DNA of 64,000 nt from Microbacterium proteolyticum (GTDB lineage: Bacteria; Actinomycetota; Actinomycetes; Actinomycetales; Microbacteriaceae), in NCBI RefSeq assembly GCF_029639405.1, contig NZ_CP121274.1, positions 310,001 through 374,000 on the forward strand, given 5' to 3'. This document shows, in pieces, positions 21,636-50,915 of the stretch; positions within the stretch are counted from its first letter, which is position 1, and each line of letters begins with the position of its first letter. The notes beneath the pieces are model-generated. The model was not told the DNA's origin. It worked only from the letters and a program-made list of their open reading frames with translations, and searched no databases. The position numbers and the translations under genes are program-made.

Positions 21636-21641
21636 TACGTT
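21636..21641 (+). promoter_or_regulatory. -10 box for the SAH-hydrolase-like cassette
   Basis: TACGTT lies 6 nt before the GTG at 21648. It would start a leaderless transcript covering the four overlapping genes to 26296. Confidence 0.5.
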
Positions 21642-21647
21642 CGAGCC

Positions 21648-22391
21648 GTGTCGTCCTCCACGTCCGCCGCCCCCGCCGGGCCCGACGCCGTGTTCCCGAT
21701 CGCGCGGGGGTTCCTCGACGCGCGTCCGGTCGGGCCCGTCGCGCTCTCCTACGGCGGCCCTCTTCCCGCCGTGCCCGCCGACCTCCGCGCCGATCTCCGC
21801 TCGGCCTGGGACCTCGACGTCATCCACGATCCCGCGGCGCCCGACCCGCTCGCCTCGCGGGCGTTCGGCATCCTGTACGGCCACCTGCGGGCCGAGCAGG
21901 TCGTTTTGGCACTGTCGGCTCGCACGAACCTGACGCTCGCCGGAGGCACGGTGCGCATCGTCGGTGACGGCGCGCCGGCCACCGCGCTGACGACGGTGCT
22001 GCGACGTCTGGGGGCCGCCGTCGTGCGCGCGACCGACGATCCGGTCGAACGACTCGCCGCCCGGCTCGACGGCATCCGCGTCGAGGCCGTCGCCGCGCCC
22101 GGCTCGACGCCCGTGACGATCCTGACGGGTGTCGGCCACGACGGCTTCACGGCGACCGACGTGCGGGGTCTGGTCGCCGATGCCTCCCCCCGGCCGGTGG
22201 ATGCCGCCGACCTGCCGTCCCCGCGCCCGCACGTGCGCACGACCCCGAACGGATCCCTGGTGGAGATGCCCTCGCCCCTCCCCGTCGAGGGCGAGCGACC
22301 CACCTCGGCGCAGCTCCACCTCGTCGACGCTCTGATCGCGGCCCTGATCACCGGCGCCGACGACGCCTTCGCCTCGGCGGTGACTCCGTGA
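21648..22391 (+). CDS. Degenerate adenosylhomocysteinase-like protein
   Basis: A 247-residue protein that I do not recognise as a named family. From about residue 100 it runs parallel to the NAD domain of SAH hydrolases: GGTVRIVGDGAPATALTTVLR matches a Rossmann turn with the glycines disturbed. AAVVRATDDPVERLAARLDG then matches the stretch that in the next gene reads ARVVVTETDPVAALQAAFAG. VTILTGVGHDGFTATD and TTPNGSLVEM follow in the expected order. The substrate domain is missing or much shortened. The stop overlaps the start of the SAH-hydrolase-like gene. It may be a non-catalytic partner subunit; this is my inference from alignment by eye. Confidence 0.55.
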   Translation: MSSSTSAAPAGPDAVFPIARGFLDARPVGPVALSYGGPLPAVPADLRADLRSAWDLDVIHDPAAPDPLASRAFGILYGHLRAEQVVLALSARTNLTLAGGTVRIVGDGAPATALTTVLRRLGAAVVRATDDPVERLAARLDGIRVEAVAAPGSTPVTILTGVGHDGFTATDVRGLVADASPRPVDAADLPSPRPHVRTTPNGSLVEMPSPLPVEGERPTSAQLHLVDALIAALITGADDAFASAVTP

Positions 22392-23644
22392 GCGGCCGGA
22401 TCGCCGACCCGGGGCTGTGGCGGGCCGGGCACGACCGGATCGAGTGGGCCCGCGCCCACATGCCCGTGACGACGGCGCTCGCCGCGCGGCTCGCCCGCGA
22501 CGGCACCGTCGCAGGGGTCCGCATCGGCGTCTCGGACGTGCTGGAGCCCAAGACCGCGACGATCGCCCTCGCGCTGGCCGAGGCCGGGGCCGACGTGACC
22601 GTCACCTCCGCCGGTCGCAACACCGACGACGCGGTGGCCGCGGCGCTGGCCCACGCCGGCATCCCGACCTACGCCCGCGCCGACGCCGACCGCACCGAGG
22701 ACCGGGCCAACGCCCTGGCGCTCCTCGAGCACCGTCCCCACGTGATCGTGGACGACGGCGCCTCGACGATCCGCCTCGCCCACCTCGAGCGCCCCGACGT
22801 CGTCGCGGAGATGCGCGGGGCGACCGAGCAGACGACCTCGGGGGTACGGCCGCTGCGTCGCATGGAGGCCGAGGGCGCGCTGCGCATCCCCGTCGTGGCC
22901 GCCAACGACGCCCGGTCGAAGTCGCTGTTCGACAACATGCACGGCACCGGGCAGTCGGTCGTGTTCGCCGTCGCCGACGTGGCGGACCGCTCCTTCCGCG
23001 GCGCGACCGTCGCCGTCGTCGGGTTCGGACGCGTCGGAACGGGTATCGCGCAGCACGCCGCCGCGCTCGGCGCGCGGGTGGTCGTGACCGAGACCGATCC
23101 GGTCGCCGCGCTCCAGGCGGCCTTCGCCGGGTTCGAGGTGCGCACCCTGGCGGAGGCCGTGCGGTTCGCCGACATCGTCATCTCGGCCACCGGCATCCGT
23201 CACACGATCGACGTCCCGCATCTCGACGCGCTCCGCGACGGAGCGGTCGTCGCGGTCGGCGGCGGCGTGGGCCAGGAGATCGCCCTGGATGCCGCTCGCG
23301 CGGCGGGGGCCGTCGAGATCGCGCGCACGGGAGCCGTCTCGATCCTCCGGATGCCGAGCGGTGCCGAGGTCCAAGTCCTCGACGACGGGAACTGCCTCAA
23401 CGTCAGCGCCGCCGAAGGCAACCCGGTGGAGATCATGGACCTCTCCTTCGGTGTCCAGCTCGCCTCCGTCGCCCACGTGCTCTCGACCCCCGACCTCGCC
23501 CCGGGGGTGCACGACCTGCCCCGGGCCGCCGACGACGAGGTCGCCGCCATCGCCCTCTCCTCGTTCGGCGGCACGTTGGACGCGCCGTCCGCGGCGCAGC
23601 AGGCGTTCCTCGCGACGTGGAATCCCGAGGAGGGCGAGGAGTGA
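22388..23644 (+). CDS. Divergent adenosylhomocysteinase family protein
   Basis: A 418-residue SAH hydrolase homologue, shorter than bacterial AhcY and lacking the C-terminal Lys-Tyr tail. Retained: VDDG (residues 121-124), ribose-contact NDARSKSLFDN with Lys178, Asp182 and Asn183, HGTGQS as in archaeal members, and the NAD turn VVGFGRVGTG (210-219). Changed: the adenine/His55 region reads GVSDVLEPKTA instead of a His-x-Thr pattern. The TEETTTG loop reads TEQTTSG, and the GHFD loop reads GGGVG. Bulk SAH recycling is therefore doubtful; a related nucleoside-like thioether or ether is more likely. Genes on both sides overlap it. Confidence 0.75.
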   Translation: MSGRIADPGLWRAGHDRIEWARAHMPVTTALAARLARDGTVAGVRIGVSDVLEPKTATIALALAEAGADVTVTSAGRNTDDAVAAALAHAGIPTYARADADRTEDRANALALLEHRPHVIVDDGASTIRLAHLERPDVVAEMRGATEQTTSGVRPLRRMEAEGALRIPVVAANDARSKSLFDNMHGTGQSVVFAVADVADRSFRGATVAVVGFGRVGTGIAQHAAALGARVVVTETDPVAALQAAFAGFEVRTLAEAVRFADIVISATGIRHTIDVPHLDALRDGAVVAVGGGVGQEIALDAARAAGAVEIARTGAVSILRMPSGAEVQVLDDGNCLNVSAAEGNPVEIMDLSFGVQLASVAHVLSTPDLAPGVHDLPRAADDEVAAIALSSFGGTLDAPSAAQQAFLATWNPEEGEE

Positions 23645-24936
23645 CCGTCGTCGTCCACCGCGCCCCGGTCGTCCTCTCTCCCGGCTCGCCGCCGCTGACG
23701 GACGGAGCCGTCACGATCGCGGACGGTCGCATCCGCGACGTCGGTCCCGCCGACGAGGTGCTCGCCGCCGCCGGCCCCGACGCCGAGCTGCACGAGTGGG
23801 ACGGCGCGCTGACCCCCGGTCTCGTCAACGCCCACACGCACCTGCAGTACAGCGACATGGCGGCCGTCGGCCTCGCCGAGCACACCGGCTTCGAGGCGTG
23901 GATGAGCGCCTTCATGGAGCTCTACCCTGTCCCCCGCGACTGGGGCGCGTCGGCCGCGGCCGGCGCCGCCCTGGCCCTGCGCTCCGGCACGACGGCCGTC
24001 GCCGAGATCGTCACCGATGCCGCCGCCGGTTCCGCCGTGCACGACGCGGGGCTCCACGGCATCGCGTTCTGGGAGGTGCTCGGCTGGACCGAGCGCGCGT
24101 GGGCCGAGAACGGCGAGCGCACGGTGCGCGCCGAGCTTGCGGCCCTCCCCACCCCGCCGGCGACGGGTCTGTCGCCCCACGCGATCTACTCGCTCGACAC
24201 GGCCGTGCTGCGCGATCTCTCGCGCCTCGCGCGGACGCTCGGTGTGCGCCAGCACATCCATGCGGCGGAGTCGGCGTGGGAGGACGCGTACGTGCGCTCC
24301 GGAACGGGCGATCTCGCCGAGCGGTGGCGGGCCAACGGACGCGGCGAGTTCACCCTGCTCCGCGACGGCGGCGTCGGCACGGGTGTCATCCGGTACCTCG
24401 ACGACCTCGGCGCCCTGACCCCGACGACGCATCTCGCGCACGGGATCTACGTGGATGCCGACGACCGGGCGCTCCTGCGCGCCCGCGGCGTCAGCGTGGC
24501 GCTGTGCCCCCGCTCGAACGCCGTGATCGGCCTGGACCCGCCCCCGGTCGCCGCGTACCTGCGCGAGGGCAACGCGATCGCCGTCGGCACGGACTCGCTG
24601 TCGTCGTCGCCGAGCCTCTCCCCGTGGCAGGACGTCGCCGCGCTCGCGGACATCGCCCGCGCCCAGGGGTACGCCGACGACGACCTCCACGCGCGCCTGT
24701 TCGCGGCCGCGACGACGGGAGGCGCACGCGCCCTCGGACTGGACGCCGACACCGGCGTCCTCCGTGCGGGGGCCCGCGCCGACCTCGCCGTCTTCCCCGT
24801 CGCCTCGGCCACGCCGCGCGACGCCCTCGCTGAGCTCGTCGAGGACGGCCCCGCCGAGGCATCCCTCACCGTCGTCGGCGGCCGCGTCCGCTGGGCGACC
24901 ACCGCCGATCACGAACGGACCACCGCCCATGTCTGA
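23641..24936 (+). CDS. Amidohydrolase, aminofutalosine/MTA deaminase-like
   Basis: A 431-residue metal-dependent hydrolase of the TRZ/ATZ-MtaD group. Metal ligands are visible in NAHTHLQYSD (about residue 62), HIHAAES (about 205), LAHGIY (about 268) and VGTDSLSSSPSLS (about 318). The HTHLQYSD opening, the FEAWM segment and the GTDSLSSS ending are closest to aminodeoxyfutalosine-type deaminases, enzymes that deaminate adenine in 5'-modified nucleosides. This organism uses the classical men pathway, so menaquinone is not the likely role. Next to a divergent SAH hydrolase it suggests deamination of a modified nucleoside. Confidence 0.75.
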   Translation: MTVVVHRAPVVLSPGSPPLTDGAVTIADGRIRDVGPADEVLAAAGPDAELHEWDGALTPGLVNAHTHLQYSDMAAVGLAEHTGFEAWMSAFMELYPVPRDWGASAAAGAALALRSGTTAVAEIVTDAAAGSAVHDAGLHGIAFWEVLGWTERAWAENGERTVRAELAALPTPPATGLSPHAIYSLDTAVLRDLSRLARTLGVRQHIHAAESAWEDAYVRSGTGDLAERWRANGRGEFTLLRDGGVGTGVIRYLDDLGALTPTTHLAHGIYVDADDRALLRARGVSVALCPRSNAVIGLDPPPVAAYLREGNAIAVGTDSLSSSPSLSPWQDVAALADIARAQGYADDDLHARLFAAATTGGARALGLDADTGVLRAGARADLAVFPVASATPRDALAELVEDGPAEASLTVVGGRVRWATTADHERTTAHV

Positions 24937-26296
24937 CCCCCGCCCGCTGCTGTTCGGCCTCTACGAACAGGCCTGCGTCGGCAACGGCTCCTCGGCCGCG
25001 AGCCTGTGGACCCACCCCGCCGACGACCGGTTGTCGGCGACGTCGCTTGGGTATTGGACCGACCAGGCGCGGCGCGTCGAGGACGCCGGCATGGACCTGT
25101 TCTTCTTCGGCGACGTGCTCGGGCTGTACGACACGTACCGGGGCGGGGCCGAGACCGCGATCCGTCACGGCGTGGAGATCCCGGCGCTCGACCCGATGCT
25201 GCACATCCCGGCGCTCGCCGCGGTCACCGACCGCATCGCGTTCGGGACGACGGTGTCGACGACGTACGAGCACCCGTTCGCACACGCGCGCCGCTTCTCC
25301 ACTCTCGACCACCTCACCGGCGGGCGCATCGGCTGGAACGTCGTGACGTCGTACCTGCCGGGGGCGGCGGCGAACTTCGGTCTGGACGTCATGGCGCACG
25401 ACAGCCGCTACGACCGCGCCGACGAGTTCCTCGAGGTCGCCTACGCGCTGTGGGAGCGCAGCTGGGACGACGACGCGTTCGTCGGCGACAAGGCATCCGG
25501 GGTCTTCGCCGACCCCGCCAAGGTGCACCGCATCGATCACGTCGGCGAGCACTTCCGCGTCGCCGGCCCCCACCTCGTGACCCCGTCGCCCCAGCGCACC
25601 CCCGTGGTCATCCAGGCCGGATGGTCGCCGCGCGGCCGCGAGTTCGCCGCCCGGCACGCCGAACTGATCTTCGTGGGCGACTCCGATCCGGTCGCGGTGC
25701 GCGAGGGGCTCGCAGGCATCCGCCGTCGGGCGGAGGAGCTGGGGCGGGATGCCTCCCAGATCCGCGCCGTGGTGGGCATGAACCTCGTGGTCGCCCCGAC
25801 CGCGATCGCGGTGCAGGAGAAGATCGATTCCCTCCAGGAGCACTACGCCGCGGAGGCGCAGCTGGCGGCCTACGCCGGGTGGGGCGGGATCGATTTCTCG
25901 CAGTACGCCGACGACGAGCCGCTCGTCAAGCGCAGCACGAACGCGACGCAGACGAAGGAGACGCGCAGCGACGCGCCCGTGCTCACCGCCGGAGACGTGC
26001 GCCGCCAGTTCTCGAAAGTGACCGCGTTCGCGGACGACCGCTTCCTCGGCACCCCCGACACCGTCGCCGACTCCATCGGGGCCTTCGTCGAGGAGTCGGG
26101 GGTCGACGGCTTCCTGCTGCACCCGTTCCTGTCACCCGGATCCGTCGAGGACTTCGCCGAGCTCCTCGTCCCGGCGTTGCGCGAGCGGGGGCTGTACGGC
26201 GGCTTCCCGCAGGACGGCACGTTCCGCTCGCGGCTGCGCACCGACCGCCGCGACCGCCTCGGCGACGACCACCCCGCGCGCTCCGGCGCGCGGTGA
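24929..26296 (+). CDS. NtaA/DszA-type FMN-dependent monooxygenase
   Basis: A 455-residue LLM-class flavin monooxygenase of the NtaA/SnaA/SoxA(DszA) branch. Diagnostic blocks: FFGDVLGLYDTYRGG (about residue 53), the THIS-type ALDPMLHIPALAAVTDRIAFGTTVSTTYEHPF core, the RIGWNVVTSYLPGAAANFG motif typical of the branch, and VIQAGWSPRGREFAARHAE. Members use FMNH2 from a separate reductase to cleave C-S or C-N bonds. It overlaps the amidohydrolase stop by eight bases and closes the four-gene unit. No flavin reductase is encoded nearby. Confidence 0.82.
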   Translation: MSDPRPLLFGLYEQACVGNGSSAASLWTHPADDRLSATSLGYWTDQARRVEDAGMDLFFFGDVLGLYDTYRGGAETAIRHGVEIPALDPMLHIPALAAVTDRIAFGTTVSTTYEHPFAHARRFSTLDHLTGGRIGWNVVTSYLPGAAANFGLDVMAHDSRYDRADEFLEVAYALWERSWDDDAFVGDKASGVFADPAKVHRIDHVGEHFRVAGPHLVTPSPQRTPVVIQAGWSPRGREFAARHAELIFVGDSDPVAVREGLAGIRRRAEELGRDASQIRAVVGMNLVVAPTAIAVQEKIDSLQEHYAAEAQLAAYAGWGGIDFSQYADDEPLVKRSTNATQTKETRSDAPVLTAGDVRRQFSKVTAFADDRFLGTPDTVADSIGAFVEESGVDGFLLHPFLSPGSVEDFAELLVPALRERGLYGGFPQDGTFRSRLRTDRRDRLGDDHPARSGAR

Positions 26297-26312
26297 GCCG
26301 CCGGCGCCGCGG

Positions 26313-27305
26313 TCAGTCGCGCGGCGCCGGACCCGTCGAGAGAGCGTGGACGAACCGGCGGAGGAACTCCGTCTTGTCGAACGCCGTCACCGCGCGGACG
26401 ATCGGCCCCTCCGGTGTCCCCCACACCAGCGGCAGGCCGTCGTGCGTGAGCGCGATGCGGGTCGCGAGGGAGTCGGCGTACGGCGTGTAGTCCACCGGTC
26501 CCTCGATCCAGCTCGTGACGATCTCCGGGCGGTGCAGGATGACGGTCGTCAGGCCGTCGTGGGCGGACGAGATCCGACGCCCCCACTTGTACTGGTAGAA
26601 GTCGTTGTACGCGTCGAGCACCTCGCCGGCGAACGTCGCCCACGGGGTCCCGACCCCGCGCAGCACGGCGAGCACGTGCTCGTCGAGGATCGCCGTCGCC
26701 GTGACGTTCACTCCCACCATGACGACGTTGCCGGAGTTGCGCGCACCGAACACGATCTCGGCGGCGCGACGGTCGTTGGCGGTGTTGGCATCCGTCAGGG
26801 TCGCACCACCCGGGGCCGGGTACGGACCCGCCCCGCCCATGATGACCACCGATCGGAACTTCAGGAACAGGTCGGGGTCGCGCTCGAGCGCGCGGGCGAT
26901 GTTGGTGAGGGGCCCCAGGGGGTGCAGGTCCACCTCACCGGGGTGCTCCGCGGCGATGCGCACGATGGCATCCACCGCGCTCTCGTCCTCGACGCGCAGC
27001 TCGGCGCGGTCGAAGCGGTCGCCGAGGCCGTCGGTGCCGTGGACGAAGTCGGCGATGGACGCCTCGCCCTCGATCGGCGCGGCCTCCCCCAGGTGCACCG
27101 GGATGTCCTCGCGCCCCGCGAGCCGCAGCACGGTGCGGACGTTGCGCGCGGAGTCCTCCACCGGCGTGTTGCCGTAGATCGTCGTGATGGCCTCGATCGC
27201 GACGTCGGGCTGGGCCAGCAGGTACATGAGGGAGTGCGCGTCGTCGAGGCCGGTGTCGGTGTCCACGAGGACGCGGCGGACGACGGAAGGAGAAGCGGAT
27301 GCCAT
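26313..27305 (-). CDS. Nucleoside hydrolase
   Basis: A 330-residue N-ribohydrolase. The calcium-binding signature DTDTGLDDAHSLMYLL is at about residue 14, followed by ITTIYGNTPVEDSARN (about 41), PLGPLTNIARAL (about 116), the VIMGGAGPYPAPGG block and TDANTANDRRAAEIVF. Start ATG 27305 is preceded by GGTGAG; an in-frame GTG 33 bases upstream is less likely. It converges on the monooxygenase gene and is divergent from the ABC importer, so it probably releases the base from an imported nucleoside. Confidence 0.88.
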   Translation of the reverse strand: MASASPSVVRRVLVDTDTGLDDAHSLMYLLAQPDVAIEAITTIYGNTPVEDSARNVRTVLRLAGREDIPVHLGEAAPIEGEASIADFVHGTDGLGDRFDRAELRVEDESAVDAIVRIAAEHPGEVDLHPLGPLTNIARALERDPDLFLKFRSVVIMGGAGPYPAPGGATLTDANTANDRRAAEIVFGARNSGNVVMVGVNVTATAILDEHVLAVLRGVGTPWATFAGEVLDAYNDFYQYKWGRRISSAHDGLTTVILHRPEIVTSWIEGPVDYTPYADSLATRIALTHDGLPLVWGTPEGPIVRAVTAFDKTEFLRRFVHALSTGPAPRD

Positions 27306-27340
27306 GCACTCACCCTGCCCGGTCGCTCCCGCCGACACGG

Positions 27341-27357
27341 CGCGGTGTTACACCGCG
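27341..27357. promoter_or_regulatory. Perfect 17-bp palindrome, candidate operator
   Basis: CGCGGTGTTACACCGCG has perfect 8-bp arms around one T. It sits between the divergent nucleoside hydrolase and solute-binding protein genes, 36 bp from the former start. It is a good candidate operator for a shared repressor, but no regulator gene is adjacent. Confidence 0.55.
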
Positions 27358-27486: not shown

Positions 27487-28725
27487 ATGGCATCCACGTC
27501 TCAGCGACTGCGTCGCGTCGCACTCCCCGCGGCCGGTCTCACCGCCGCTCTCGCCCTCACGGCCTGCGCCGGCGGTCAGGCCGCCCCCGCCCCGACCGAC
27601 GGGTTCGACGGCGTCAGCCTGACCGTCTGGAACAACATCGACTTCGAGCCCTACCAGGGCCTGCAGAAGCAGTACTTCGAAGCGTGCGCCGCCGACCTCG
27701 GCATCACGGTCGACGTGCAGACCCAGTCCGGCGACTACACCACGAAGCTGCTGCAGGCCGCCGGCGCCAAGGCCCTGCCCGACGTGGCCCTCCTCTCCAC
27801 CGACACGCAGCTGCCGCAGCTGGCCGCCCAGGGCGTGCTCGCAGACCTCAGCTCGTACGACGTGAGCACGGACGGTCTCGCCGACAGCGCCGCCGACCTC
27901 GGCCGCTACGACGGCACGCTCTACGGTCTGCCCGTGCAGGTCGAGGACTACGCCATCTTCTACAACAAGGCCGCCTTCGCCGCCGCCGGAGTGTCCGAGA
28001 CCGCGCCGAAGACCTTCGACGACCTCGTGAAGCTCGCAGCGTCGTTGACCACGGCCGACCAGAAGGGCATCGTCCTCCCGGGCATCGGCGGCGACGGCTC
28101 GACCCCGGTGTACTTCCTGCCGTTCCTCCTCTCCGCCGGCGGCGACCCCGCCGACCCGACCGGCACCGGTGCCGTCGAGGCCGTCGACCTGTACAAGAAG
28201 CTCGTCGACAACGGCTCGCTCTCGTCCGAGTTCGTCAACTGGGGCTGGGACTCGATCGACCAGTGGACCTCCGGCAAGACGGCTCTGACGGTGTCGGGCC
28301 CCTGGAACCTCGTCGACACCTCGATCCCGTTCGAGTGGGGCACGTTCCCCTTCCCGACCGCCACCTCCGGTGAGTCGCCGAAGGTGAACCTCCTCGGCTA
28401 CGCCTACGGCGTCGCCGCCAACGCCGACGCGACGAAGGAAGCCGCGGCCGCAGCGCTGGTCAAGTGCCGCGCGTCAGAGGAGAACCAGGTCGACACCGCG
28501 GTCCAGGGCGGATACATCCCCGCGCTGAAGAGCGCGCAGGCCACCTTCGTCGAGAAGGTCCCCGCCGCCGCCCCGTTCGTCGACGCCGTCGACGGCGCGT
28601 ACAACTCCGCGCAGCTCGGCACCGAGTGGAACACGCTGCAGCAGCAGTACGTCGACGCCATCCAGGCGGCGACGGTCGGCGGACAGACGGCACAGGCCGC
28701 CCTGGAGCAGGCCAGCGGCAAGTGA
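27487..28725 (+). CDS. ABC importer solute-binding lipoprotein
   Basis: A 412-residue extracellular solute-binding protein of the family 1 (CUT1 sugar) type. The signal peptide ends in lipobox LTAC (Cys26). Family features: SLTVWNNIDFEPYQ opening, ALPDVALLSTDTQLPQLAAQGVLADL, GLPVQVEDYAIFYNKAAF and the QWTSGKTALTVSGPWNL hinge. Its gene is followed by two permeases in one overlapping unit. The ligand is not readable from sequence; the divergent nucleoside hydrolase suggests nucleosides, while the family more often binds oligosaccharides. Confidence 0.88.
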   Translation: MASTSQRLRRVALPAAGLTAALALTACAGGQAAPAPTDGFDGVSLTVWNNIDFEPYQGLQKQYFEACAADLGITVDVQTQSGDYTTKLLQAAGAKALPDVALLSTDTQLPQLAAQGVLADLSSYDVSTDGLADSAADLGRYDGTLYGLPVQVEDYAIFYNKAAFAAAGVSETAPKTFDDLVKLAASLTTADQKGIVLPGIGGDGSTPVYFLPFLLSAGGDPADPTGTGAVEAVDLYKKLVDNGSLSSEFVNWGWDSIDQWTSGKTALTVSGPWNLVDTSIPFEWGTFPFPTATSGESPKVNLLGYAYGVAANADATKEAAAAALVKCRASEENQVDTAVQGGYIPALKSAQATFVEKVPAAAPFVDAVDGAYNSAQLGTEWNTLQQQYVDAIQAATVGGQTAQAALEQASGK

Positions 28726-29669
28726 CGGCGGACACGCTGACGACGACCGGCCGGCCGGGGGCACGCACCCCCGGTCGGTTCCGGCGTTCCCTGGCCGCGC
28801 GCCAGCGCGGTGAGCTGTGGGGGTTCCTCACCCCGGCCATCGTGTTCTTCATCGTCTTCTTCCTGTTCCCCCTCGGGTACGGCGTGTACATGAGCACGAC
28901 GAACTTCACGACGGGGACGTTCATCACCGGCCGGGCGCCGTTCGTCGGGACGGCGAACTTCGAGGCGATCCTCTCCGAGCCGATCACCTTCCGCGCGCTG
29001 GCGAACACCGTCACGATCACCGTGGTCTCGGTCGTCGTCGAGCTCGTCCTGGGGCTTCTCCTCGCGCTCCTCTTCGCCCGGAGATTCCCCGGCAGCCGCT
29101 GGCTGCCGACCCTGATCCTCCTGCCGTGGCTGCTCCCGGCGGTCGTCGTGGCGACCGTCTGGAAGTCGCTCCTCGCCGGGGACGGACCGATCAACGACGT
29201 GCTGGGGTCTCTCGGACTTCCCGCCGAGGCGTGGCTGGCGAACCCGGCCACCGCCCTCCCGGCCGTCATCGTGGTCGCCGTGTGGGCGAGCCTGCCCTAC
29301 TGGGCCACGATCCTGGGCGCGGCCCTCAAGCAGGTGCCGGCCGAACAGCTCGAGGCGGCTCAGCTCGACGGGGCGGGCGCCTGGCGTCGCCTCGTCTCGA
29401 TCGTGCTGCCGACGATCTGGCCCGTGATCTCGGTGCTCGTCGTCATGAGCGTCGTCTACACGCTCCTCATCGTCGACCTCGTGCTCGTCCTCACGGCCGG
29501 CGGTCCCGCCAACAGCACGGTGACCCTCGGCCTGCTGTCCTACCGGCAGGCGTTCCAGCAGTTCCAGTTCGGACTCGGCGGCGCCTACGGGATGCTGCTG
29601 CTGGGCATCAGCATCCTGTTCGCGATCGTGTACACCGTGATGTCCATGCGCCAGGAGCGTGACGAATGA
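28722..29669 (+). CDS. ABC importer permease (MalF type)
   Basis: A 315-residue inner-membrane permease with six predicted helices. The EAA loop that contacts the ATPase reads EQLEAAQLDGAGAWRRLVSIVLPTIWP (about residues 206-232). The GTG start overlaps the solute-binding protein stop (GTGA). The extended N-terminus (about 30 residues) is basic and cytoplasmic. Confidence 0.88.
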   Translation: MTADTLTTTGRPGARTPGRFRRSLAARQRGELWGFLTPAIVFFIVFFLFPLGYGVYMSTTNFTTGTFITGRAPFVGTANFEAILSEPITFRALANTVTITVVSVVVELVLGLLLALLFARRFPGSRWLPTLILLPWLLPAVVVATVWKSLLAGDGPINDVLGSLGLPAEAWLANPATALPAVIVVAVWASLPYWATILGAALKQVPAEQLEAAQLDGAGAWRRLVSIVLPTIWPVISVLVVMSVVYTLLIVDLVLVLTAGGPANSTVTLGLLSYRQAFQQFQFGLGGAYGMLLLGISILFAIVYTVMSMRQERDE

Positions 29670-30547
29670 CCGCGACCCTGCCCGCCGCCCCGGCCCCCGC
29701 GACGACCGCCTCGGTCGCCGCTCCCGTCGCCGAGCGTCGCCGCCGCCGCGGCTGGACGTGGACGATCGTCACGATCGTCGTGCTCGCCGTCTACCTCTTC
29801 CCCGTCTACTGGATGATCTCTGCGTCGCTGCAGCCCTCCGCCAACTCGGCGGACACCGCCTGGTTCCCGGTCTCCCCCGGGCTCGGCGGCTACGAGAAGG
29901 CGCTCGACGACGCCGGCATCGGCGGGTTGCGCGTGTCGGTCCTGGTCTCGCTCGGCTCGGTGCTCGTGACGCTGCTCGTGGCCATCCCCGCCGCGTACGC
30001 GCTCAGCCGCCTGCGGTCGCGGGCGGTCAGCATCGCCCTCATCCTGCTGCTGCTCGCGCAGATGATCCCGAGCGTCGTCCTGGCCACCTCGTTCTACGCG
30101 ATGTTCAACTCGTGGGGCCTGCTCAACACGTTCATCGGGCTCATCCTGGCCAACGCCACCGCGGGCGTCCCGTTCGCGGTCATCGTGATGAGGGCCTTCA
30201 TGCTGCGCCTGGACACCGAGGTGATCGAGGCGGCGACGGTCGACGGACTCGGGCCGATCGGCACGCTGTGGCGGATCGTCGTCCCGCTCTCGCGCAACGC
30301 CATCGTCACCGCCGGCGTCTTCGCGTTCCTCTTCAGCTGGGGCGATCTGCTGTTCGGCCTGACCCTGGTCAACCGCAACGAGATGTACCCCATGTCGGTG
30401 CTGATCCTGGCGCTGGCGAACTCGAACCTCAACACGTGGGCGGCGACGATGGCCGCTTCCCTGATCGCGAGCGTGCCCGCCCTGGTGGTGATCCTCGCGG
30501 CTCAGCGACACGTCAAGGCGGGTCTGAGCGCCGGCGCCGGACGCTGA
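29666..30547 (+). CDS. ABC importer permease (MalG type)
   Basis: A 293-residue permease with six helices. The EAA motif is VIEAATVDGLGPIGTLWRIVVPLS (about residues 187-210). The ATG overlaps the preceding permease stop. No ATP-binding gene follows; CUT1 systems in actinobacteria commonly use one shared MsmK/UgpC-type ATPase encoded elsewhere. The pseudo-ATPase at 32000 is not a credible partner because its catalytic motifs are lost. Confidence 0.88.
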   Translation: MTATLPAAPAPATTASVAAPVAERRRRRGWTWTIVTIVVLAVYLFPVYWMISASLQPSANSADTAWFPVSPGLGGYEKALDDAGIGGLRVSVLVSLGSVLVTLLVAIPAAYALSRLRSRAVSIALILLLLAQMIPSVVLATSFYAMFNSWGLLNTFIGLILANATAGVPFAVIVMRAFMLRLDTEVIEAATVDGLGPIGTLWRIVVPLSRNAIVTAGVFAFLFSWGDLLFGLTLVNRNEMYPMSVLILALANSNLNTWAATMAASLIASVPALVVILAAQRHVKAGLSAGAGR

Positions 30548-50357: not shown

Positions 50358-50915
50358 GTGAAGCTCCTCGTCGCCGCCCACGCGTCCGAATTCGTCGCCT
50401 TCGAACCCGACATCCCCGGTTTCGACCGACTGCTGACCGGCGTCGGCAAGATCCCCGCCGCGTACGCCCTGACCCGCGCGCTGTGCGAGGGCACCTACGA
50501 CGAGATCGTGGTCGTGGGCACCGCGGGCGCCATCGACCCCGACCTCGAAGGCGGCATCTACGACATCTCCGCCACGATCCAGCACGACGTGAAGGGCCTC
50601 GACGGCACCTTCGGTCAGCACGTCTGGCTGCCCGCGCGGGTCGACATCGCCCCCGAGGGCGTCGTGATCGCGACCGGCGATCACTTCGTCGACGACGCCG
50701 ACGCCGTCGCCCTCATCCGCGGACTCGACGCGCGCATGGTCGACATGGAGTCCTACGCGCTCGCGTGGGTCGCGCAGCAGTTCGACGTCCCGATCCGCAT
50801 CCTGCGCGCCGTCTCGGACCGCGCCCAGGACGGCGCGACCGAGTTGTGGGACGACGTCGTCGAGCGGTGCAGCCACGAGCTCCGCGCGAAGATCCGCGAG
50901 CTCTACGGCGTGTGA
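50358..50915 (+). CDS. Short nucleosidase (MTA/SAH nucleosidase-like)
   Basis: A 185-residue PNP/UDP-phosphorylase fold protein, shorter than the usual ~230 residues of MtnN. It keeps VVVGTAGAIDPDLEGG (about residue 46), the VDMESYALAWVAQQFDVPIRILRAVSD block with the ribose-contact Met-Glu (about 132) and the C-terminal helix. The N-terminal Asp/Glu general acid is not obvious. It probably splits base from ribose of MTA-, SAH- or related nucleosides. It may complement the divergent SAH-hydrolase cassette at 21.6 kb. Confidence 0.75.
   Translation: MKLLVAAHASEFVAFEPDIPGFDRLLTGVGKIPAAYALTRALCEGTYDEIVVVGTAGAIDPDLEGGIYDISATIQHDVKGLDGTFGQHVWLPARVDIAPEGVVIATGDHFVDDADAVALIRGLDARMVDMESYALAWVAQQFDVPIRILRAVSDRAQDGATELWDDVVERCSHELRAKIRELYGV

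Follow-up and report, generated by a model that had tools for sequence, protein, structure and literature searches.

A divergent S-adenosylhomocysteine hydrolase relative and its decaying paralogue in a putative nucleoside-scavenging module of Microbacterium proteolyticum

What purpose might a bacterium have for two adjacent relatives of S-adenosylhomocysteine (SAH) hydrolase (SAHH), one reduced to a stub and the other lacking three histidines, next to a deaminase-type amidohydrolase? The question is raised by a 64,000-nt stretch of the 3.97-Mb genome of Microbacterium proteolyticum (contig NZ_CP121274.1, positions 310,001–374,000; hereafter the window, to which positions refer unless stated otherwise), in which four plus-strand genes, g1 to g4, overlap successively by 4, 4 and 8 nt, a nucleoside hydrolase (NH) gene lies convergent to them, and the genes of an ATP-binding cassette (ABC) importer (a binding protein and two permeases) follow beyond NH. 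An earlier note on this DNA had described the same arrangement, with which our coordinates and family names agree. We found the g1–g4/NH/importer cassette to be a real module, conserved far beyond chance, and read it as probably serving the uptake and catabolism of a 5′-substituted adenosine, with SAH or a closely related thio- or sulfonium-adenosyl compound as the most likely substrate; to this reading we assign a probability of roughly 55%. No description of the module was recognised among the open-licence papers that literature searches listed.

Spread of the module and identity of g2

A genome scan with a g2-family profile yielded 366 confirmed stretches, the best 80 of which, chosen by closeness, were used; all counts out of 80 loci describe these nearest relatives. 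The earlier note had likened the pairing of deaminase and SAHH to archaeal SAH deamination and had tied its case to a gene order shared with relatives. That order is indeed conserved, g3 adjoining g2 in 78 of the 80 loci at spacings from −4 (overlap) to 3216 nt; the two loci without g3 are L064 (Granulosicoccus, none on the 15-kb contig) and L077, which reaches a contig end. Where g2 and g3 are 2.4–3.2 kb apart (20 of the 78 loci), the importer occupies the interval in every case whose genes were inspected. Within 7 kb of g2, 76 of the 80 loci encode an importer, belonging to three unrelated types (amino-acid-type SBP_bac_3 in 37 loci and partially in one more, CUT1 type in 22, and energy-coupling factor (ECF) type in 16; thresholds 28% identity and E 1e-10, with queries partly drawn from the same loci).

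The protein at the centre of the module, g2 (22388–23644, plus strand; 418 amino acids (aa); family B), combines an AdoHcyase domain with an NAD domain. It scores 331.3 bits against TIGR00936, the ahcY equivalog model, below the cut-off of 497.6, and 385 bits against NF004005, another adenosylhomocysteinase model, above the cut-off of 275. A quick IQ-TREE phylogeny of 65 rows, some of them long-branched or of odd composition, united the 36 g2-family rows in one clade (SH-like approximate likelihood ratio test (SH-aLRT) support 99) and the six rows of A, a full-length paralogue standing next to g2 in some loci, in another (100), and joined the two (96), with the AhcY rows outside and a weakly supported root region (39); the degenerate A of locus L033 was excluded. 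Rows of g2 from loci with an intact A fell outside a 30-row clade (94) that holds those accompanied by a pseudo-A, a stub or a fused partner. Grouping with ordinary AhcY, which the earlier note had said would speak against it, did not occur, and its description of g2 as a divergent SAHH is borne out by the tree, by the TIGR00936 score and by an active-site motif of which only the E-x-K half is present. On this evidence g2 is best regarded not as an AhcY but as a clade of its own, sister to the tandem paralogue A.

Residues were numbered after the Pyrococcus furiosus SAHH, a correspondence checked on eight residues. Three histidines are replaced in all 36 g2-family rows, namely H55 (by Val in 32, Phe in three and Thr in one), H298 (by Gly in 35 and Met in one) and H350 (by Asn throughout). 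All 36 rows retain E57, K59, D128, N178, K183, D187, N188 and E302, which comprise the NAD/3′-oxidation residues and the E-x-K pair, and all six A rows retain these eight together with the three histidines, intact A having the full HxExK motif. In the g2 of the window, V51 occupies the H55 site and G293-V294 the place of the gate His-Phe; E53 and K55 of HxExK are present and the motif histidine is Val, leaving the full motif of S-inosylhomocysteine (SIH) hydrolases (SIHHs) incomplete. As excerpts of a study of these enzymes have it, HxExK enzymes favour SIH, the lysine contacting O6 of hypoxanthine, while the motif histidine matters for catalysis, and the gate is H298-F299 (PMC10978960); excerpts of a second report describe the SAHH gate as conserved, its table rows giving homo-oligomers (PMC13406329). 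Judged by the residues kept, g2 is expected to have retained the ability to bind a 6-oxopurine nucleoside and to oxidise its 3′-hydroxyl; since the three histidines are gone, the chemistry at the 5′ position would have to be arranged otherwise.

The structural model of g2 (predicted local distance difference test (pLDDT) 92.4) finds its best fold match in P. furiosus SAHH with inosine (7r37; template modelling (TM) score 0.92), consistent with an SAHH-superfamily fold plus NAD domain, and the ratio of nonsynonymous to synonymous substitution rates (dN/dS) lies at 0.07–0.18 across seven relatives. AhcY shares this fold (TM about 0.9), the NAD domain and the K/D/N catalytic residues, whereas its HxTxE(Q) motif is absent from g2, which also differs from it in clade, TIGR00936 score and the histidines at 55, 298 and 350. 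Two of the twelve AhcY rows carry HxTxE, presumably those of L110 and L111, loci from Rhizohabitans and Streptosporangium genomes in which two SAHH genes of different types stand side by side.

From paralogue A to a stub

Upstream of g2 lies g1 (21648–22391, plus strand; 247 aa), which appears to be the stub of a second SAHH and is our candidate for a structural partner of g2. Its matches to single models stay below the cut-offs (Pfam AdoHcyase_NAD, E 0.0025 and 18.4 bits against a cut-off of 27; an NCBIfam SAHH-type model, E 2.9e-5). Profile comparison linked it to the g2 family (E 1e-8 over 100 columns) and to A (E 2.5e-6, probability 88.8), and all 50 fold-search matches among those listed were SAHH or SAHH-like (TM of 0.43 or less; mean pLDDT of the model 71). 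By alignment, g1 covers the Rossmann domain and the helix preceding it, and in the segment aligned with the g2 family the Lys, Asp and Asn of the SAHH catalytic helix read Ser, Gly and Ile. The earlier description of g1 as a pseudo-SAHH is upheld by the profile comparison and the fold search, and its catalytic residues appear to have been erased.

A partner accompanies g2 in 79 of the 80 loci. Five loci have a full SAHH paralogue A and one (L033) a full-length pseudoenzyme; of the rest, 33 have the stub as a gene of its own and 40 carry it as an in-frame N-terminal extension of g2. As the partner profile had been seeded with 17 of the same 80 loci, the 57 loci left after removal of the seeds and the A loci served as a control: it matched 56 of them (E 1e-9 or better) and none of 289 other same-length stretches of the same loci (E 1e-3). 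In L032, the sole miss, the contig ends 142 bases from the start of g2. Two further full A genes were found, in L107 and on a Roseateles plasmid. A thus decays across lineages, from an intact enzyme through a full-length pseudoenzyme to a stub such as g1 or a domain fused to g2, and the simplest history would be tandem duplication of an archaeal-type SAHH followed by stepwise loss of A's catalytic part, the rest being kept. Enzymes of the AHCY/AHCYL1 type likewise include an active SAHH and a relative that lacks the full catalytic equipment; the present case differs in being a bacterial operon, in its decay series down to an NAD-domain stub, and in the partner being neighbouring or fused.

We propose that g1 acts as the non-catalytic subunit of a mixed oligomer with g2, in place of the intact paralogue A of basal lineages. 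It evolves under constraint (dN/dS 0.27–0.45 in the same seven relatives), less so than g2, g3 and g4, and the excess over g2 would suit a decaying leftover next to a g2 that acts alone. That explanation is unlikely in our view, as the ratio stays well below 1 and a partner is kept in 79 loci, 40 of them with an in-frame fusion.

Companion genes and genomic context

The third gene, g3 (23641–24936, plus strand; 431 aa), encodes an amidohydrolase that is a probable purine-type deaminase, perhaps acting on a 5′-substituted adenosine. It matches models for methylthioadenosine (MTA)/SAH, 5′-deoxyadenosine and aminofutalosine deaminases, in each case below the curated cut-off; scores were 119.6 bits for TRZ/ATZ hydrolase (cut-off 540), 118.6 for 8-oxoguanine deaminase (532), 117.8 for 5′-deoxyadenosine deaminase (522) and 100.6 for the aminofutalosine-type model (320). 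H65/H67, H205xH207xxE210, H267 and D318, which we take to be the metal and catalytic residues of cog0402-type deaminases, are all present, and across 78 loci the motifs HxHxxE and GTDS occur in 78, HxAH in 77 and the first HxH in 77 (Tyr in L025). Among the deaminase-type amidohydrolases, g3 forms a subfamily of its own; its dN/dS is 0.12–0.23. A single long alignment links it with the structure of DR_0824 (2imr), presumably an aminofutalosine deaminase, and likewise with the aminofutalosine-type model. Unlike what would be expected next to the 6-aminodeoxyfutalosine deaminases (DR_0824/2imr; 7lkj), the genome contains menD and gave no match to MqnA/MqnD (PF02621). A link to futalosine and menaquinone was set aside as unlikely on these grounds, as the earlier note had also argued; its appeal to a full men pathway holds for menD, the gene to which the check was limited.

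The g3 family is scarce across the phylum, with two hits among 296 Actinomycetota genomes (even sample, E 1e-90), one being the window's own genome; a search in the class of genome G020 found it in one of 240, G020 itself. Elsewhere in the window's genome (C2:1121361–1123179, corresponding to L106:8362–10180), a second g3 copy and a Cupin_5 gene lie beside genes read as rplI/rpsR/rpsF, and no g2 gene or cassette importer was found beside them. This copy may be a relic, since Rathayibacter (L020) has the whole cassette near genes likewise read as rplI/rpsR/rpsF.

At least 13 of 149 genomes of the genus have a full-length g2 match of 373–392 bits among the matches listed; their window-type status was assigned by score, with the signature confirmed in L086 and L087. 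Ten other loci of the genus divide into six with a Curtobacterium-type cassette of g2, g3, Cupin_5 and an SBP_bac_3 importer (L088, L089, L090, L092, L093, L097) and four with a different SAHH family (L091, L094, L095, L096). This family "C" (LHxEPKTA...GNPIEAMD), present in the genus and nearby, was set aside, as tblastn detected neither g3 nor a cassette importer next to it in L091, L094–L096 and L098–L101, three of these eight loci being inspected gene by gene; in its sequences D128 is Asn and D187 Glu in all eight, and Asn stands at H350 in seven. Also set aside were SAHHs on Paenibacillus and Rubrobacter plasmids, which are single genes with no g3 in the annotated 15 kb. One of the plasmid loci, L121 (Rubrobacter radiotolerans plasmid 2), encodes an SAHH 41% identical to the g2-family protein of L050, followed by a gene of the bile-acid:sodium-symporter family.

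The last gene of the overlapping series, g4 (24929–26296, plus strand; 455 aa), encodes an NtaA/DmoA/LadA-type flavin monooxygenase (471 bits against TIGR03860 NtaA/DmoA, cut-off 279.7; dN/dS 0.04–0.13 in five relatives). At more than 60% identity it occurs in 12 of the 18 Microbacterium loci, while all 62 loci from elsewhere lack it at that level; weaker relatives lie near the cassettes of L074 (42%) and L088 (44%). It is accessory and optional, and the role of a core C-S/C-N-cleaving step that the earlier note had given it is not supported by this distribution. Riboflavin catabolism in Microbacterium involves RcaE, a flavin monooxygenase of the same group as g4, and is not known to include a counterpart of g1–g3. 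A riboflavin-catabolic role of g4 was not supported, as g4 is nearer to LadA (413.7 bits) than to the riboflavin lyase 5w48 (317.8 bits) and is optional.

On the minus strand follows NH (26313–27338; PF01156 by family search). Between the divergent starts of NH and the binding protein, a perfect 15-base palindrome, GCGGTGTTACACCGC (27342–27356), is present in one exact copy in the window and might be an operator; a similar sequence occurs in few relatives only. The importer comprises a family-1 (CUT1-type) solute-binding protein, SBP_bac_1 (27487–28725, plus strand), permease 1 (28728–29669, plus strand; start codon uncertain) and permease 2 (29666–30547, plus strand), the permeases being named from position and likeness. 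A LacI regulator and, upstream of A, a shared palindrome resembling CTAAGCGCTTAG were seen in five of five A–B loci inspected (L048, L050, L059, L069, L119), of which L050 and L059 are near-copies; in L064 no LacI match was obtained within 7 kb. On the Roseateles sp. XES5 plasmid, LacI is followed in turn by A, B, the binding protein, two permeases, g3, an ATPase and the nucleoside hydrolase.

As for transcription of the cassette, a candidate –10 element, TACGTT (21636–21641, plus strand), begins 12 nt upstream of the g1 GTG, with six bases in between. Of 12 Microbacterium relatives compared (one of them nearly identical to the window), 10 have exactly this hexamer, and its constancy amid variable flanking bases fits a leaderless g1 transcript. 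A leaderless promoter had been named in the earlier note; a generic sigma-70 promoter scan gave no match.

A proposed route and its alternatives

From sequence conservation, gene order, phylogeny and residue losses, which were observed directly, we infer all enzymatic steps of the following route. The ABC importer would bring in a 5′-substituted adenosine; g3 would deaminate its adenine to hypoxanthine; g2, with NAD+, would oxidise the 3′-hydroxyl and split off the 5′ substituent, leaving inosine; and NH would split inosine into hypoxanthine and ribose. In some strains the side chain set free may be handled by g4. The importer, a deaminase able in principle to make hypoxanthine, the SAHH relative with its hypoxanthine-binding residues and NH would together make a coherent path from imported nucleoside to hypoxanthine, ribose and side chain. 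Of the 22 CUT1-type loci, 18 have NH no more than 7 kb from g2. In nine SBP_bac_3 proteins from other lineages, an alignment shows an Arg kept in nine and an Asp in eight, which we take to be the residues typical for alpha-amino-acid ligands; they point weakly to SAH- or SAM-like (S-adenosylmethionine) compounds and would fit a side chain such as homocysteine.

Among the closest known parallels is the DadD plus SIHH route of Methanocaldococcus and Thermotoga, which uses the same two enzyme types; g2 and A share the E-x-K residues with it and belong to the archaeal-type SAHH lineage. Unlike that route, the module is bacterial and patchy, comes with an importer and partly with LacI, has a second SAHH or its stub, uses a different amidohydrolase branch for g3, and has a g2 without the three histidines. 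An actinobacterial case of SAH deamination is Streptomyces flocculus, for which SAH deaminase and SIH were described, the SIH-consuming enzyme being unknown, as cited in excerpts of a study according to which the Streptomyces SAHHs tested did not cleave SIH (PMC10978960).

Several observations weigh against the proposed route. With H55 and the gate His/Phe missing from g2, thioether hydrolysis is not assured (excerpts of PMC10978960 and PMC13406329), and with catalytic and gate histidines gone in all 36 rows ordinary SIH-hydrolase activity cannot be assumed. The substrate of g3 is not fixed by its sequence, given the roughly equal scores with the 8-oxoguanine deaminase, TRZ/ATZ hydrolase and 5′-deoxyadenosine deaminase models; for the same reason (118.6 against 117.8 bits for the first and last of these), the 5′-modified nucleoside put forward in the earlier note stays a guess. 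In L064, A, g2 and an importer are present and g3 is absent from the contig. None of the 58 loci without a CUT1-type importer has NH within 7 kb, and the route does not account for the Cupin_5 gene of 45 of the 80 loci, which is found in none of the CUT1 loci. Importers of three unrelated types suggest no single class of ligand: SBP_bac_1 looks sugar-like, and the S component of the ECF type is similar to the riboflavin family; comparing that component with solved structures returned nothing useful. Finally, no methionine genes were seen among the annotated neighbours, where no systematic search was made.

Two further alternatives concern the 5′ group. If it were small or not a leaving group at all, as in MTA or 5′-deoxyadenosine, g2 could act as a 3′-dehydrogenase giving a 3′-keto nucleoside, whose base would be lost by elimination; Val, Phe or Thr at H55 would suit this, as would the match of g3 to the 5′-deoxyadenosine deaminase model (117.8 bits, cut-off 522). 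We regard it as rather improbable, as NH would then be superfluous, yet it is found in those 18 of 22 CUT1-type loci and beside the Roseateles operon. A little less probable still, and overlapping with the uptake-and-catabolism reading itself, is a sulfonium substrate, SAM or its inosyl form, from which g2 would free methionine. A sulfonium 5′ group leaves unaided, so an acid/base histidine could be lost, in line with H55 and the gate histidine having disappeared from all 36 rows while the 3′-oxidation residues stayed intact, and the amino-acid-type residues of the nine aligned SBP_bac_3 proteins agree with it. This support is indirect, the importers are unlike each other, and to our knowledge ordinary SAHH does not use SAM.

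Combining these elements, one may tentatively envisage a new enzyme complex, in which an NAD-dependent g2 without acid/base and gate histidines would work only together with a dead SAHH stub, within a dedicated nucleoside-scavenging operon, and would perform chemistry other than SAH hydrolysis, e.g. 5′-cleavage of a sulfonium nucleoside to methionine or formation of a 3′-keto nucleoside; we hold this to be possible, and less probable than the general reading of the module as a 5′-substituted adenosine pathway.

Besides g2 and its g1 partner, no SAHH-family gene was found in the window's genome, so that the lack of another AhcY, which the earlier note had counted against its own proposal, did turn out to be the case. 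It is tempered by 32 further genomes that encode a g2-family protein, 16 of which also have an AhcY above the TIGR00936 cut-off, a coexistence which argues against taking the family for a simple AhcY replacement. A short MTA/SAH-nucleosidase-like protein encoded at 50358–50915 (plus strand; 120.7 bits, just below the NF004168 cut-off of 129) is possibly the genome's route of SAH disposal. That g2 is the genome's AhcY in disguise, recycling SAH as a housekeeping enzyme, would account for the lack of any other SAHH-family gene and was nevertheless rejected as very improbable, considering the coexistence with AhcY, the position outside AhcY in the tree, the patchiness of window-type g2 (those 13 or more of 149 genus genomes among the matches listed), the importers linked to it, the LacI regulator that several basal loci also have, and the nucleosidase-like protein, albeit below cut-offs.

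Compared with the earlier note, the loss of the histidines, the intact A and its decay to g1, the other importer types and the Cupin_5 gene seen in other lineages are additions. Public records annotate g2-family genes as adenosylhomocysteinase. The module would represent a variant of SAH/SIH-type nucleoside metabolism built around an unusual pair of enzymes. In the series that leads from intact A through pseudoenzyme and stub to fused domain, nature offers a legible example of an enzyme becoming a structural partner, and because residues considered important in SAHH are consistently lost here, the SAHH mechanism becomes directly testable.

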